Below are positions 17,503 to 35,451 of a stretch of 64,000 nt of DNA, piece by piece (position 1 is the stretch's first letter; each line of letters begins with the position of its first letter). The position numbers and the translations under genes are program-made. This DNA is from Flavobacteriaceae bacterium. Lineage in GTDB: Bacteria; Bacteroidota; Bacteroidia; Flavobacteriales; Flavobacteriaceae. The stretch spans positions 1 to 64,000 of the forward strand of contig JAFMCA010000003.1 of assembly GCA_017858055.1 (NCBI GenBank), in the 5' to 3' direction. A model generated the notes under the pieces. It saw nothing but the letters and a program-made list of their open reading frames with translations. It searched no databases and was not told where the DNA came from.

Positions 17503-19863
17503 TCAAAAGTAAAGCACAAAACCAAAGGAAGGTAAAGGGGTGCTATTTCCTTCTGTAGTAGATAATTGTACCAAACTTTTTGGTAGTACTAAAGTGCCGT
17601 TTTCTCCTCTATTAAGTCCGTATTCAGGTGGGGATGGATTCGGCTGAGCTAAGAAATTCTGAACCTCAAAATAGAGGTTGAACGAAAGATTTTTAAAATT
17701 CCATTTTTTATCAATTCGGATGTCCGCTAAATTAAAGCTGTTCAGTTTTACCTCTCCCAATCGATCGTAATCCAAAATCAACTCTGGATAGGAAACAATA
17801 CTTTGCTCTAAATCTACGGGTACATAGGGGTTCTTTCCAGCAAAACGCCATCGTGCACTTAATTCCCAATTGCGTTTTAATTTATATCCTCCTGAAAAGG
17901 AAATAAGATGTCTGCTATCCCAAACTGAAGGCCTCAGCACACCGTCTGCTCCTGAGAACTCACTAGAAAAATAAGTGTATGCAAAAACACCGTAAAAATT
18001 ATTTGAGAGCTTTTGCTGAAACAAAACCTCTACTCCAGAACTTTGTCCTTCCCCTTCAGATCGAATGGCTTCATTTCCCAAAACCTCAAAACCACCTCCT
18101 TTATTGGCTAAGGATACTCCGTCGATAACGGAAACCGGATAGTTTGCATAATTTTTACGAAACCCCTCAACAGTGAATCGAGAAGCAGGTGTAAGATTGT
18201 ATTCGATCCCTCCTACCCAATGATCGCTTCTGGTGTATGCGGCTTGTTGGTTTGCGAAAATACCCTGCTGGTTTTGGAAACCCAACATGGTATAGGTTGG
18301 TATTTTAAAATAACGCCCTGCGGAGGCATTCAGTTTCCATCTCTGATTTTCTGTCAAAGCATACGAAAATGAAAGTCTTGGGGAAATGTTGTCAAGCAGA
18401 CTAGATCCCTCTGAAAAACTATCCGCATCGGAACGTATCCCCCATGAAAAATCTAGACGATCGTTTAAAAAAGCTCTTGATGCCTTGAGAAAGAGCCCGT
18501 ATTTCACAAAGTTTACGTCCGTATTGTAGGCAATGTCATAATATAAAAAACGGGTGTTGTTTTGATAGGAAGAATTTTGAACATTTACCCCTGTTGACCA
18601 TTTCCATTGATCCCCATATTGGGTTGCTTGAATTCGAAATTTAGTCTCCCACTCGTAAGAGTCGTTCTGAAAAATTGTGCCGGTTTTCGTAGTGTTGTCC
18701 TCATACCGAGCAAATACATTTTCCAATCGATTCGAACTCACTACCGTATTCAAAAACCCTTTACCGTTTTTGTATTTTCTTTTCCAAGCCAATCCTACTG
18801 TTGTACTTCGCTGATCAATTATAGGCACTTGTTCCAAGGCGGCTTGTTGCTCCTCATCAAATTCATCCGGGGCCTTTACTGAAAAATCGTCTATTGCGCC
18901 TATGCCGATAAAAGAAAGGGAATTATAGGCATCTATCTCATGCTTAATTTTCCATTGGTAATCCCAATAATCAGGACGAATGGGAAGCCCTATTAATTCA
19001 AAAAGGAATTGCAAATAACTTCTTCTCAAGGAAAAAAGAAAAGTGGTTTGCGCTGGTTTAGATTTGTCCGTATTGAATAAGGGACCTTCCAAGGTCAATG
19101 CTGTTTCACTCGCACCTAAACGAAGATTTCCCCCAAAACCATTGGCATCTCCCTCGCGTTGTTCAAATGCCAAAACACCCGAAAGGGGGTTGTCGTATTC
19201 GGCTCCAAATGAAGAACTGGATAACGTCACTTCACGAATAAAAGATACATTTACCATTCCTACGGGACCCCCAGCACTCCCTTGGGTACTAAAATGGTTG
19301 ATGTTGGGAATTTCAATTCCGTCTAAATAATAAACAGTTTCGTTTGGTGCCCCTCCTCGAATGATAATATCGTTTCGGAATCCACCTATCGATGGAGAAA
19401 TCCCTGGCATGCTTTGCACTACTTTGGTTATGTCATTATTTCCACCGGGGTAGGTTTCAATTTCGACCACAGAAAAAGTCTGAGTAGAAAGAGGCGTTTC
19501 ACTACTCGATTTGAACGGACTTTGAACCACGATGACTTCCTCCAAACTTTCTGAGATTTCCTCTAGCTTAAACTGCAATGGAATATTTCCTACAGACTTT
19601 AAAATTACATTGTAGAGCGTTTGGGTTTCATACCCCAAAAAACTCACTTGAATATTATAGGTTTGGGTAGGAACATCAAGGAAAGTAAACTTCCCTTCTT
19701 CATTTGTTACCACCCCATAAGAAGTCCCCAAAAGTAAAACAGTAGCTCCTTCTAAAGGTTGCTCACTTTGAGCATCCATAATTTGACCACTTAGCGATCC
19801 AGTGTTCTGAGCAATCAAAAAGCTGGTAAAGCAAACAAAAAGATAGAATAGAATATTTTTCAT
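17503..19863 (-). CDS. TonB-dependent outer membrane receptor
   Basis: Energised outer membrane transporter of 786 aa. It has a Sec signal peptide (about residues 1-18, ending LIAQ), a carboxypeptidase-like regulatory domain (about 22-105, GSLSGQIMDAQSEQPLEGAT), a plug domain (about 120-235, IIIRGGAPNETVYYLDGIEI) and a 22-strand-type barrel ending in Tyr-Phe. It is not a SusC: no SusD gene is adjacent and it is too short. A Rieske lipoprotein gene diverges from it 79 bases upstream. The substrate is unknown. Confidence 0.9.
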   Translation of the reverse strand: MKNILFYLFVCFTSFLIAQNTGSLSGQIMDAQSEQPLEGATVLLLGTSYGVVTNEEGKFTFLDVPTQTYNIQVSFLGYETQTLYNVILKSVGNIPLQFKLEEISESLEEVIVVQSPFKSSSETPLSTQTFSVVEIETYPGGNNDITKVVQSMPGISPSIGGFRNDIIIRGGAPNETVYYLDGIEIPNINHFSTQGSAGGPVGMVNVSFIREVTLSSSSFGAEYDNPLSGVLAFEQREGDANGFGGNLRLGASETALTLEGPLFNTDKSKPAQTTFLFSLRRSYLQFLFELIGLPIRPDYWDYQWKIKHEIDAYNSLSFIGIGAIDDFSVKAPDEFDEEQQAALEQVPIIDQRSTTVGLAWKRKYKNGKGFLNTVVSSNRLENVFARYEDNTTKTGTIFQNDSYEWETKFRIQATQYGDQWKWSTGVNVQNSSYQNNTRFLYYDIAYNTDVNFVKYGLFLKASRAFLNDRLDFSWGIRSDADSFSEGSSLLDNISPRLSFSYALTENQRWKLNASAGRYFKIPTYTMLGFQNQQGIFANQQAAYTRSDHWVGGIEYNLTPASRFTVEGFRKNYANYPVSVIDGVSLANKGGGFEVLGNEAIRSEGEGQSSGVEVLFQQKLSNNFYGVFAYTYFSSEFSGADGVLRPSVWDSRHLISFSGGYKLKRNWELSARWRFAGKNPYVPVDLEQSIVSYPELILDYDRLGEVKLNSFNLADIRIDKKWNFKNLSFNLYFEVQNFLAQPNPSPPEYGLNRGENGTLVLPKSLVQLSTTEGNSTPLPSFGFVLYF

Positions 19864-19942: not shown

Positions 19943-20383
19943 ATGAGTAGCAAAGATCGACGCGAATTTTTAAAAACAGCTTGTATGCCAGTTGTTTTGG
20001 CAGCATTTGGTATTTCAGTTTTAGAGGCTTGTTCCACAGAAGAAGATGATGATTCCTATGAATATGGCGCTTCGGGTTCCACCAGTAATCCATCCGACCC
20101 TGTAAAACTCGATATCTCATCAAGTGATTTTAATTCGTTGCAAACTGTAGGGGGATGGCTAAACTTCACGTCCAAAAACATTTTACTTGTAAGAATCAGT
20201 GAAACGGAAATACGGGTATTTGACAATAAATGTCCACATCAAGGAAATCGTGACAAGTGGACTTATAACGGCAGTCAATTTACATGTGGCTATCATAACA
20301 ACTCTTATTCGGATTCTTGTTCTGGTGCACTGACTTGTTATGATGCTGAATTAGAGGGCAATAATCTTACGATTACGTTCTAA
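19943..20383 (+). CDS. Exported Rieske [2Fe-2S] lipoprotein (first of three)
   Basis: A 146-aa Rieske protein with a Tat-like lipoprotein signal: RREFLKT at 6-12 and lipid Cys30 (VLEAC). After an acidic linker comes a small Rieske domain with cluster ligands Cys97/His99 (CPH) and Cys115/His118 (CGYH). Two more Cys (126, 132) follow and are kept in the paralogs at 34330 and 34828. The usual CPxHG box is altered to CxxHN. It is divergent from a TonB receptor. The electron partner is unknown; Tat export fits a protein folded with its cluster. Confidence 0.88.
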   Translation: MSSKDRREFLKTACMPVVLAAFGISVLEACSTEEDDDSYEYGASGSTSNPSDPVKLDISSSDFNSLQTVGGWLNFTSKNILLVRISETEIRVFDNKCPHQGNRDKWTYNGSQFTCGYHNNSYSDSCSGALTCYDAELEGNNLTITF

Positions 20384-20934
20384 TTTTTAGATTTCTTTCG
20401 TTCAACTTTTCGCTGGGCTTTATCCAATTGTTTTTGGTGCATGTTTTGTTGCACTTCTTTCTGGATTTCTAGCTTTTTATCAAACGCTCCACGGAGGCCT
20501 TCTATATCTTCTCCAGATATTTTGTATTGGTCACCAGCTTGAAGACTAATGTCTTCAGAACCAAAACTTGCCTTGTCGGTCTGCTTACGCATAATTTCAC
20601 GTGCTGCGTTTAAGTTGTAATACAAGCCTGGATCGATCATTTTATTGGAAACAAAATGCTCTTTTTTATTTTTATCCCATCGAACAAAAACAAAACCTCC
20701 CTGGACAGAATCCAGCTTCACTTGATACACGTGGGCATGATTCGGGAGTGTTTGATATACTCGAATTTCTTCAGGAACATACCCTGCAGTATAAAGCAAC
20801 TCCTGAACAAAGGCAAATTGTGTTTCCAAAGAGGGATCAGCATATAAGGAGGGGTCCTCAACGAGTAGCTCTTCTTGACCATAACAATTTGAAAAAGGGA
20901 GAAGAAGTAAGAGTAAAATTTTGAAAGTTTTCAC
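20380..20934 (-). CDS. Secreted protein of unknown function (184 aa)
   Basis: I do not recognise a family. The N-terminus is a clear Sec signal (MKTFKILLLLLLPFSNCYGQ, cleavage near residue 20). The body is mixed, with no Cys cluster or catalytic motif; the last about 45 residues are strongly charged and probably a helix or coiled coil, rich in Gln, Lys and Glu. It overlaps the upstream YhhN-like gene by four bases, so the two are co-transcribed and perhaps functionally linked. Its stop overlaps that of the Rieske gene. Confidence 0.75.
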   Translation of the reverse strand: MKTFKILLLLLLPFSNCYGQEELLVEDPSLYADPSLETQFAFVQELLYTAGYVPEEIRVYQTLPNHAHVYQVKLDSVQGGFVFVRWDKNKKEHFVSNKMIDPGLYYNLNAAREIMRKQTDKASFGSEDISLQAGDQYKISGEDIEGLRGAFDKKLEIQKEVQQNMHQKQLDKAQRKVERKKSKN

Positions 20935-34329: not shown

Positions 34330-34782
34330 ATGAAATCTACCAACAGACGTCAGTTTATTCAACAAAGTTGTCCTCTCCTCATTGCCTCAATTGTAGGGGG
34401 TACCCTTCCCTCAGCATGCACCAAAGAGGAAGAACTGACTACACCCGTAACCAAAGAAAGTTATACTCTTACAGGACAAGTGTTAACTATCAATCTGGAT
34501 CATTCCGATTTTGAACCTCTAAAATCCAGAGGTTGGTTGAATTTTACAGAACAAAAGGTATTGATACTAAAATCAAACAAAACCTACCAAGCCTACACCA
34601 ATCGTTGCCCACATGAGGGAGTACGAAATCGTTGGTCCTATTCAGAGACCGACAACAAATTTTTATGCTCAGAGCACAACAGATCATATAAGGCAGATTG
34701 TGAAACCCAAGGAGATGGGGGAGTTTTAACGTGTTATAAAACTGAGCTGTCCAACAATGAATTAAAAATATATTTAAGTTAA
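34330..34782 (+). CDS. Exported Rieske [2Fe-2S] lipoprotein (second of three)
   Basis: A 150-aa paralog of the proteins at 19943 and 34828. Tat-like signal RRQFIQQ at 6-12 and lipid Cys30 (PSAC). The Rieske domain has ligands Cys93/His95 (CPHEG) and Cys113/His116 (CSEHN); extra Cys124 and Cys135 match the conserved pair of the paralogs, here with a five-residue longer loop. ATG 34330 is preferred over an in-frame TTG at 34306. It is followed 45 bases later by the third copy on the same strand. No oxygenase or cytochrome genes are adjacent. Confidence 0.88.
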   Translation: MKSTNRRQFIQQSCPLLIASIVGGTLPSACTKEEELTTPVTKESYTLTGQVLTINLDHSDFEPLKSRGWLNFTEQKVLILKSNKTYQAYTNRCPHEGVRNRWSYSETDNKFLCSEHNRSYKADCETQGDGGVLTCYKTELSNNELKIYLS

Positions 34783-34827
34783 TCCAATCTCAAAAAATCT
34801 CAATAAAACCCTATAAATCTTAATGTC

Positions 34828-35451
34828 ATGAAAAAAGAATTTGAAAAAAAAAGACGGCTTTTTTTATCCCAAGCTTGCCTACCTGTTCTAGCTTCTGTCC
34901 TTGGAATCCCACTTGTAACTGGTTGCACAGTGGGGTCTGAAGAAGAAGAAGAAGATCTCGATGAATTTGAAAGTTTACTGGATGAGGAAAAGGACCTCAA
35001 TAGCGGTTCTGAAAATACTGAAAATCAGGGGGATGATGAGCACGAGGATGAGGACGATGATGAGGATGAGGACGATGATGATGAGGACGATGATGATGAG
35101 GACGAGGATGATGAGGACGAGGATGAGAATCAGAATAGCAATTCCAACAACGCAACGTCTACAATAGTGATCGATTTAACTGCTACTGAGTTCAAAGATT
35201 TAGAAAATATTGGAGGATCCATGAATTATACTGCCAAAAACTTACTGTTAGTTAGGGTAAGCGAAACATCGATTCGGGTGTTCAACAATGCTTGCCCTCA
35301 TGAAGGGGTCAGAAATCGATGGTCTTTTGATGGATCAAAGTTTTTGTGTAGTGAACACAACCGATCTTACAGCAACACTTGTAACGGAAGCTTGATCTGT
35401 TATAACAGTATCCTTGAAGGAAATACATTAACAATTTCAGTTGCAAATTAA
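34828..35451 (+). CDS. Exported Rieske lipoprotein with acidic Asp/Glu linker (third of three)
   Basis: A 207-aa version of the same design: Tat-like RRLFLSQ at 9-15, lipid Cys33 (VTGC), an acidic linker, then the Rieske domain from about residue 112. Ligands are Cys156/His158 (CPHEG) and Cys174/His177 (CSEHN); extra Cys at 185 and 191. Residues 69-100 are almost only Asp and Glu, coded by imperfect GAY/GAR repeats. The strongly charged linker may hold the domain away from the membrane or bind divalent cations. Probably co-transcribed with the copy 45 bases upstream. Confidence 0.87.
   Translation: MKKEFEKKRRLFLSQACLPVLASVLGIPLVTGCTVGSEEEEEDLDEFESLLDEEKDLNSGSENTENQGDDEHEDEDDDEDEDDDDEDDDDEDEDDEDEDENQNSNSNNATSTIVIDLTATEFKDLENIGGSMNYTAKNLLLVRVSETSIRVFNNACPHEGVRNRWSFDGSKFLCSEHNRSYSNTCNGSLICYNSILEGNTLTISVAN
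35031..35127 (+). repeat. Trinucleotide-like GAT/GAC/GAG repeat (acidic linker)
   Basis: About 97 bases of nearly uninterrupted GAT, GAC and GAG codons, including repeated blocks of GAGGACGATGATGAT. Such tracts can change length by slippage in steps of three without breaking the frame. They encode the Asp/Glu linker of the third Rieske lipoprotein. Confidence 0.85.

Follow-up and report, generated by a model that had tools for sequence, protein, structure and literature searches.

The three Rieske-domain lipoproteins encoded in the window, i.e., the whole stretch of DNA analysed here (64,000 nt of a Flavobacteriaceae bacterium; assembly GCA_017858055.1, contig JAFMCA010000003.1, positions 1-64,000, forward strand), are tentatively taken, at slightly under an even chance, as flavobacterial representatives of one component of a conserved cassette that encodes a Rieske lipoprotein together with a b561-like membrane protein and a YceI lipocalin. 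The best explanation overall, to which nearly even weight is given, is that the known b561–YceI pair LcoA–BcnA has here gained a Rieske electron carrier. The link of the Rieske family at large to the b561-like–YceI module is very probable, and it is less so for the window's own copies, which are unlinked.

The Rieske lipoprotein genes of the window

The three genes, together with the two genes that flank the first of them, are the following:

17503..19863, minus strand: TonB-dependent receptor with a CarboxypepD-like domain (Pfam Plug and CarbopepD_reg), divergent to gene 1
19943..20383, plus strand: Rieske lipoprotein gene 1, 146 aa, PF00355 31.5 bits; ligands C97/H99 and C115/H118, extra cysteines 126/132, RRxF, lipobox Cys30
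20380..20934, minus strand: conserved secreted protein without a Pfam match, convergent with gene 1, whose stop it overlaps
34330..34782, plus strand: Rieske lipoprotein gene 2, 150 aa, PF00355 29.4 bits; extra cysteines 124/135
34828..35451, plus strand: Rieske lipoprotein gene 3, 207 aa, PF00355 25.5 bits; extra cysteines 185/191

All three products exceed the Pfam cut-off for the Rieske domain (PF00355, 20.3 bits), and no other gene of the 2.0-Mb source genome matches this model. They have in common the RRxF motif, a lipobox of the Cys30 type, the ligand boxes C-P-H-x-G and C-x-x-H-N and two later cysteines, so that the family of three Rieske lipoproteins proposed in a preliminary description of this DNA was confirmed in its Pfam scores, signal motif, lipobox, ligand boxes and cysteine positions. 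The other neighbours of the window Rieske genes encode an FMN dehydrogenase and a TIM-barrel protein; no cytochrome gene, be it for cytochrome b or for cytochrome c1 or f, and no oxygenase gene adjoins them in the window. The products (146-207 aa) have Rieske as their only domain, and the C-terminal mononuclear-iron domain of Rieske oxygenases is missing from them.

Gene 1 is a core gene of its genus, with an orthologue in 37 of 38 congeneric genomes, and its setting (RimM–TonB receptor–Rieske–secreted hypothetical protein) is syntenic throughout the genus and in related ones. In these genera the counterpart of the 20380..20934 gene invariably runs towards this core gene, whereas genes 2 and 3 belong to the accessory set. 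On a maximum-likelihood tree gene 2 groups with the Rieske gene L073 of genome G161, which has a b561-like–YceI pair about 4 kb away, in an 11-row clade that also holds the operonic Rieske gene of G309, and gene 3 falls into the 39-row clade of the core gene, with L092 of G220 as its nearest relative. A recent tandem duplication giving rise to genes 2 and 3 was ruled out, since the two belong to different supported clades. In the gene 3 product an extreme Asp/Glu tract, about 70 residues long, forms the linker that leads from the lipobox to the Rieske domain.

The RRxF motif and the lipobox occur together in 64 of the 69 strong family members, and TatC is encoded in the source genome (224.9 bits); the NCBIfam TAT model yields 14.3 bits, under its cut-off of 16.7. 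As judged from these sequence features, the window proteins would be Tat-exported, lipid-anchored one-electron carriers with a putative [2Fe-2S] cluster. The earlier suggestion that they are periplasmic or surface electron carriers of an undescribed route is thus upheld in part, by the domain, the Tat signal, TatC, the lipobox, the acidic residues that follow it and the fold matches. A separate peculiarity is a cysteine within the Tat signal peptide (RRxFLKxxC; Cys14 in gene 1), which is found in 64 of 64 RRxF members and is unusual for a cleaved signal.

Positions +1 to +7 after the lipobox cysteine are rich in Ser, Asp and Glu in 62 of 64 members, and these residues resemble the surface-export signals SDDFE/SDDDD of F. 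johnsoniae and B. fragilis (PMC5080379). This counts against the cassette reading, as the Rieske domain would then sit away from an inner-membrane b561 protein. This resemblance, as well as the very acidic linker of gene 3, may hint at lipoproteins that end up on the external face of the outer membrane, where they would pass electrons to or from external acceptors. Such surface carriers are nevertheless decidedly unlikely, as the operon is shared with a b561-like protein of inner-membrane type and a YceI lipocalin, and no multihaem conduit was found beside the Rieske genes.

The Rieske fold and the extra cysteine pair

In the AF2 model of gene 1 the domain has a pLDDT of about 84-96 per 10-residue block, and the Foldseek matches of this model are Rieske ferredoxins and Rieske proteins (prob 1.00 to ferredoxins); both results agree with a location of CPH and CxxH on two neighbouring cluster loops. 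With the Rieske subunits of bc1/b6f complexes (PetC, QcrA) the family shares the fold and the CxH and CxxH boxes, and its top profile match is PetC3 (5cxm). However, those subunits possess a disulfide between the two loops (CxHxxC..CxCH) and a GPA-containing Pro loop, and in the Cys-bearing family (CPHxG..CxxHN) the cysteines of the classical loop-to-loop disulfide and the Pro loop are both missing; moreover, the family has a lipobox, and its partner is not the cytochrome b of bc1/b6f. Several Rieske proteins of cassettes from outside the family do have the loop-to-loop cysteines (CPHAQC..CPCH, CTHQGC..CWCH). The Rieske ferredoxins of oxygenases (T4moC, BphA3) resemble the family in fold and in being without the loop-loop disulfide, but the family members are exported lipoproteins that have no oxygenase or reductase partner. 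The window proteins are Rieske-domain proteins that are neither bc1/b6f subunits nor oxygenase components.

The conservation of the extra cysteines, which the preliminary description had named as one of the points on which its reading depended, was borne out in 82 non-redundant homologues, 79 of them with standard ligand boxes and 3 with unusual ligand spacing. In 57 homologues CPH..CxxH is followed by two cysteines, the second directly before an aromatic residue or His, in 13 homologues CCPH..CxxH is followed by exactly one, and 9 plain flavobacterial homologues have no extra cysteine; mixed patterns were absent among the 82, i.e., the partition is perfect. This partition in the 79 homologues and the orthology of gene 1 throughout its genus take the observation beyond chance. 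On the tree the Cys family is a single clade (99/98), with the CCPH forms, mostly operonic, branching near its base and the forms with two tail cysteines being derived; few changes of the cysteines are needed on the tree. This pattern suggests that the extra cysteines form a disulfide, in which the loop cysteine would be constant and its partner would have shifted a single time, from the position just ahead of CPH to the next strand. The cysteine positions were derived from strand order and the alignment to PetC3; in this profile alignment the short turn that bears the cysteine stands where PetC3 has its Pro loop, KVLKGPAIRD. Most likely, the predicted disulfide substitutes for the deleted Pro loop near the cluster.

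One may ask if the fold has retained a redox function at all. Ligand spacing is altered in some relatives (CxxH..CxH in genus g193, C-x6-H in L166 and L193), as would be expected if the Rieske fold had degenerated and served only for structure or binding, yet CxH and CxxH are kept in all three window proteins and in 79 of the 82 homologues, and a loss of redox function is most improbable. In genus g193 (L184, L186-L189 and L191; at least 6 genomes) the two spacings are exchanged, loop 1 being CPAH or CPYH (CxxH) and loop 2 CNH or CTH (CxH); L192, although also of g193, keeps the usual CPH..CENH. At L166:6036-6557 and L193:1501-2013 the CPH box is normal and the second box is C-x6-H, due to an insertion in loop 2.

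Plain Rieske genes of other Flavobacteriaceae are surrounded by a set similar to the flavinylation clusters of ApbE, DUF3570, thioredoxin and DUF4266, the survey of which leaves Rieske unmentioned (PMC8238504). At L171-L176 and L079, a plain Rieske lipoprotein is encoded with thioredoxin_7, ApbE and a DUF3570-like gene. In contrast, the Rieske family with the cysteine pair is without such neighbours. Descent of the Cys family from ApbE-linked plain Rieske proteins was dropped as an explanation, since the tree groups the plain forms with the operonic L215, L222 and L225 and places the Cys family apart, the deep fork between plain forms and Cys family being weak.

The Rieske–b561-like–YceI cassette in relatives

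The statement of the preliminary description that no partner is adjacent holds for the window and fails for the family, as a search for the domain variant and its genomic neighbours found b561-like and YceI genes in the operons of relatives. The trio, in the order Rieske, b561-like, YceI, on one strand and with gaps of -4 to 111 bp, is carried by 10 genomes from 6 Flavobacteriaceae genera (G095, G335, G064, G317, G203, G224, G394, G309, G204 and G380), and b561-like and YceI genes are linked at every fetched Flavobacteriaceae locus that has the former. In a phylum-wide search of 296 genomes the b561-like protein was found in 25; cassette genes in GC-rich loci were recovered by six-frame search. 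Outside Flavobacteriaceae, YceI is adjacent at 19 of 20 b561-like loci and Rieske at 16 of 20, which argues that the cassette is old and much wider than this family of bacteria. Another layout, composed of YceI-like, outer-membrane-barrel-like and Rieske genes, was seen at L160:3226-6069 and L165:5750-7723, with a cupredoxin-like gene upstream of the set at L160.

Among 399 Flavobacteriaceae genomes, the b561-like gene is present in 32, the Cys-family Rieske gene in 39 and both in 31 (Fisher p ~1e-37, uncorrected for kinship). All 39 Rieske carriers of this sample have small genomes (≤2.2 Mb), and since the carriers are small and related the p-value overstates independence; the co-occurrence is partly a lineage effect, and more weight falls on the adjacency that recurs in other families of the phylum. 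Within the genus of the source genome, the family Rieske gene occurs in 37 of 38 genomes and the b561-like gene in 33 of 38. No b561-like gene was found in 8 of the 39 Rieske-bearing Flavobacteriaceae genomes, several of them incomplete assemblies and one, G020, 99% complete, so that other partners are possible.

The b561-like protein has about 200 aa, is rich in His and has four hydrophobic helices in addition to its signal peptide. In the alignment H84, H155 and H162 are found in 46 of 46 sequences, H180 in 45 of 46 and H116 in most; the conserved histidines lie in or at the starts of predicted transmembrane helices (all but H162 at starts), which fits a b561-like two-heme bundle with putative heme binding. 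Most members score under every Pfam cut-off. For Cytochrom_B561 (PF03188, cut-off 23) one member reaches 29.1, L229 reaches 22.7 and most remain below, and one protein has a weak Ferric_reduct match (E 0.007). Neither hhalign against HyaC-type PF01292 proteins nor a profile search of the PDB with the b561-like family gave a match.

The source genome (G000) encodes one b561-like protein and one cassette YceI (Pfam 54.2 bits, cut-off 23.7), together on contig C16 from position 84092 onward, between purM-like and prfA genes. No Rieske gene is present at this locus, and the three of this genome all lie in the window. Elsewhere the purM-like-X-prfA-pyrF slot often holds the plain Rieske set.

Proposed function of the cassette

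In Burkholderia cenocepacia, membrane lipid peroxidation is limited by LcoA, a b561 protein, together with BcnA, a YceI lipocalin, and LcoA was proposed by the authors to re-reduce lipocalin-bound ubiquinol (PMC9113575). The likeness to the Bacteroidota cassette is that a YceI lipocalin is encoded beside a membrane protein in both, b561 in the one and b561-like in the other, and the differences are that the cassette has a Rieske lipoprotein as its third gene and that its b561-like protein belongs to a divergent family for which NCBIfam has no model. The quinone of Bacteroidota is menaquinone, as opposed to ubiquinone in the LcoA–BcnA system. By analogy, the Bacteroidota cassette may extend the LcoA–BcnA pair. 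The b561-like protein would link the menaquinol pool to the periplasm by electron exchange via two bis-His hemes, the Rieske domain would then shuttle electrons from the b561-like protein, and the YceI lipocalin would carry an isoprenoid or quinone, which, re-reduced by these electrons, could quench lipid peroxyl radicals as proposed for LcoA–BcnA. The presumed route would run from menaquinol through the b561-like protein and Rieske to the YceI-bound isoprenoid, or in reverse if the system oxidises something. An antioxidant role, in which the cassette may guard the cell envelope against oxidative damage, is conceivable on the strength of this analogy, at somewhat less than an even chance. With lower confidence, the unlinked Rieske copies of the window would still serve the b561-like–YceI pair of C16. 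What weighs against a cassette role is that the window genes lie outside the cassette and that gene 1 occupies a stable TonB-receptor neighbourhood instead.

This neighbourhood could be explained by an envelope metal reductase, in which the Rieske protein, with the b561-like protein, would reduce ferric or cupric ligands imported by the neighbouring TonB receptors. The conserved synteny of gene 1 with its divergent receptor, a sigma/FecR/TonB-receptor set that separates b561-like–YceI from the Rieske gene in G161, the weak Ferric_reduct match and a Bizionia argentinensis Rieske gene (subtype unspecified) under the iron regulator MliR (PMC9478572) are consistent with it. However, TonB receptors are common in these genomes, and the cassette elsewhere in the phylum has no consistent TonB-receptor neighbour, which makes this explanation unlikely. 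To our knowledge, YceI has no part in metal reduction, and this also counts against it.

Carotenoid, rhodopsin-like and photolyase-like genes near the Rieske gene or the cassette in some genera provide circumstantial evidence for the antioxidant role. They may also be read differently: carotenoid-synthesis-like genes adjoin Rieske in genera g5, g68 and g193, the gene after the cassette of G309 is rhodopsin-like, and the nearest solved relatives by fold are oxygenase ferredoxins, as if the Rieske protein supplied electrons to an oxygenase of the envelope or membrane, e.g., in carotenoid or other lipid modification. Such a role is very unlikely, given that the carotenoid-type neighbours are lineage-specific and often convergent, and that carotenoid enzymes are not known to be periplasmic. 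Individual loci of this kind are L068, L149, L167 and L168, where carotenoid-synthesis-like genes adjoin the Rieske gene (Caroten_synth by Pfam, the rest by eye), and L161:5847-9210, where a rhodopsin-like and a blh-resembling gene come after the Rieske-b561-like-YceI operon (by eye).

The extension of the b561–YceI pair by a Rieske carrier may be put more broadly, as a phylum-wide envelope redox cassette, unreported before, in which Rieske would be the third component that keeps membrane lipids or quinones reduced and would tolerate a relocated stabilising disulfide and, in one genus, swapped ligand spacings; for this broad form the chance is put at roughly one in three. No description of a Rieske, b561 and YceI trio was found in the open-access literature, to which the search was confined. 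The general view is that Bacteroidota rely on alternative complex III and not on bc1, which leaves their Rieske proteins without an assigned job. Bacteroidota Rieske proteins are sometimes labelled "complex III" (e.g., PMC9478572). The cassette supplies concrete candidate partners and a testable function for these proteins, and through it the idea of an antioxidant b561–lipocalin pair, enlarged by an iron-sulfur carrier, would reach a second large phylum. The relocated cysteine and the swapped ligand spacing would be natural experiments on what a Rieske cluster requires.
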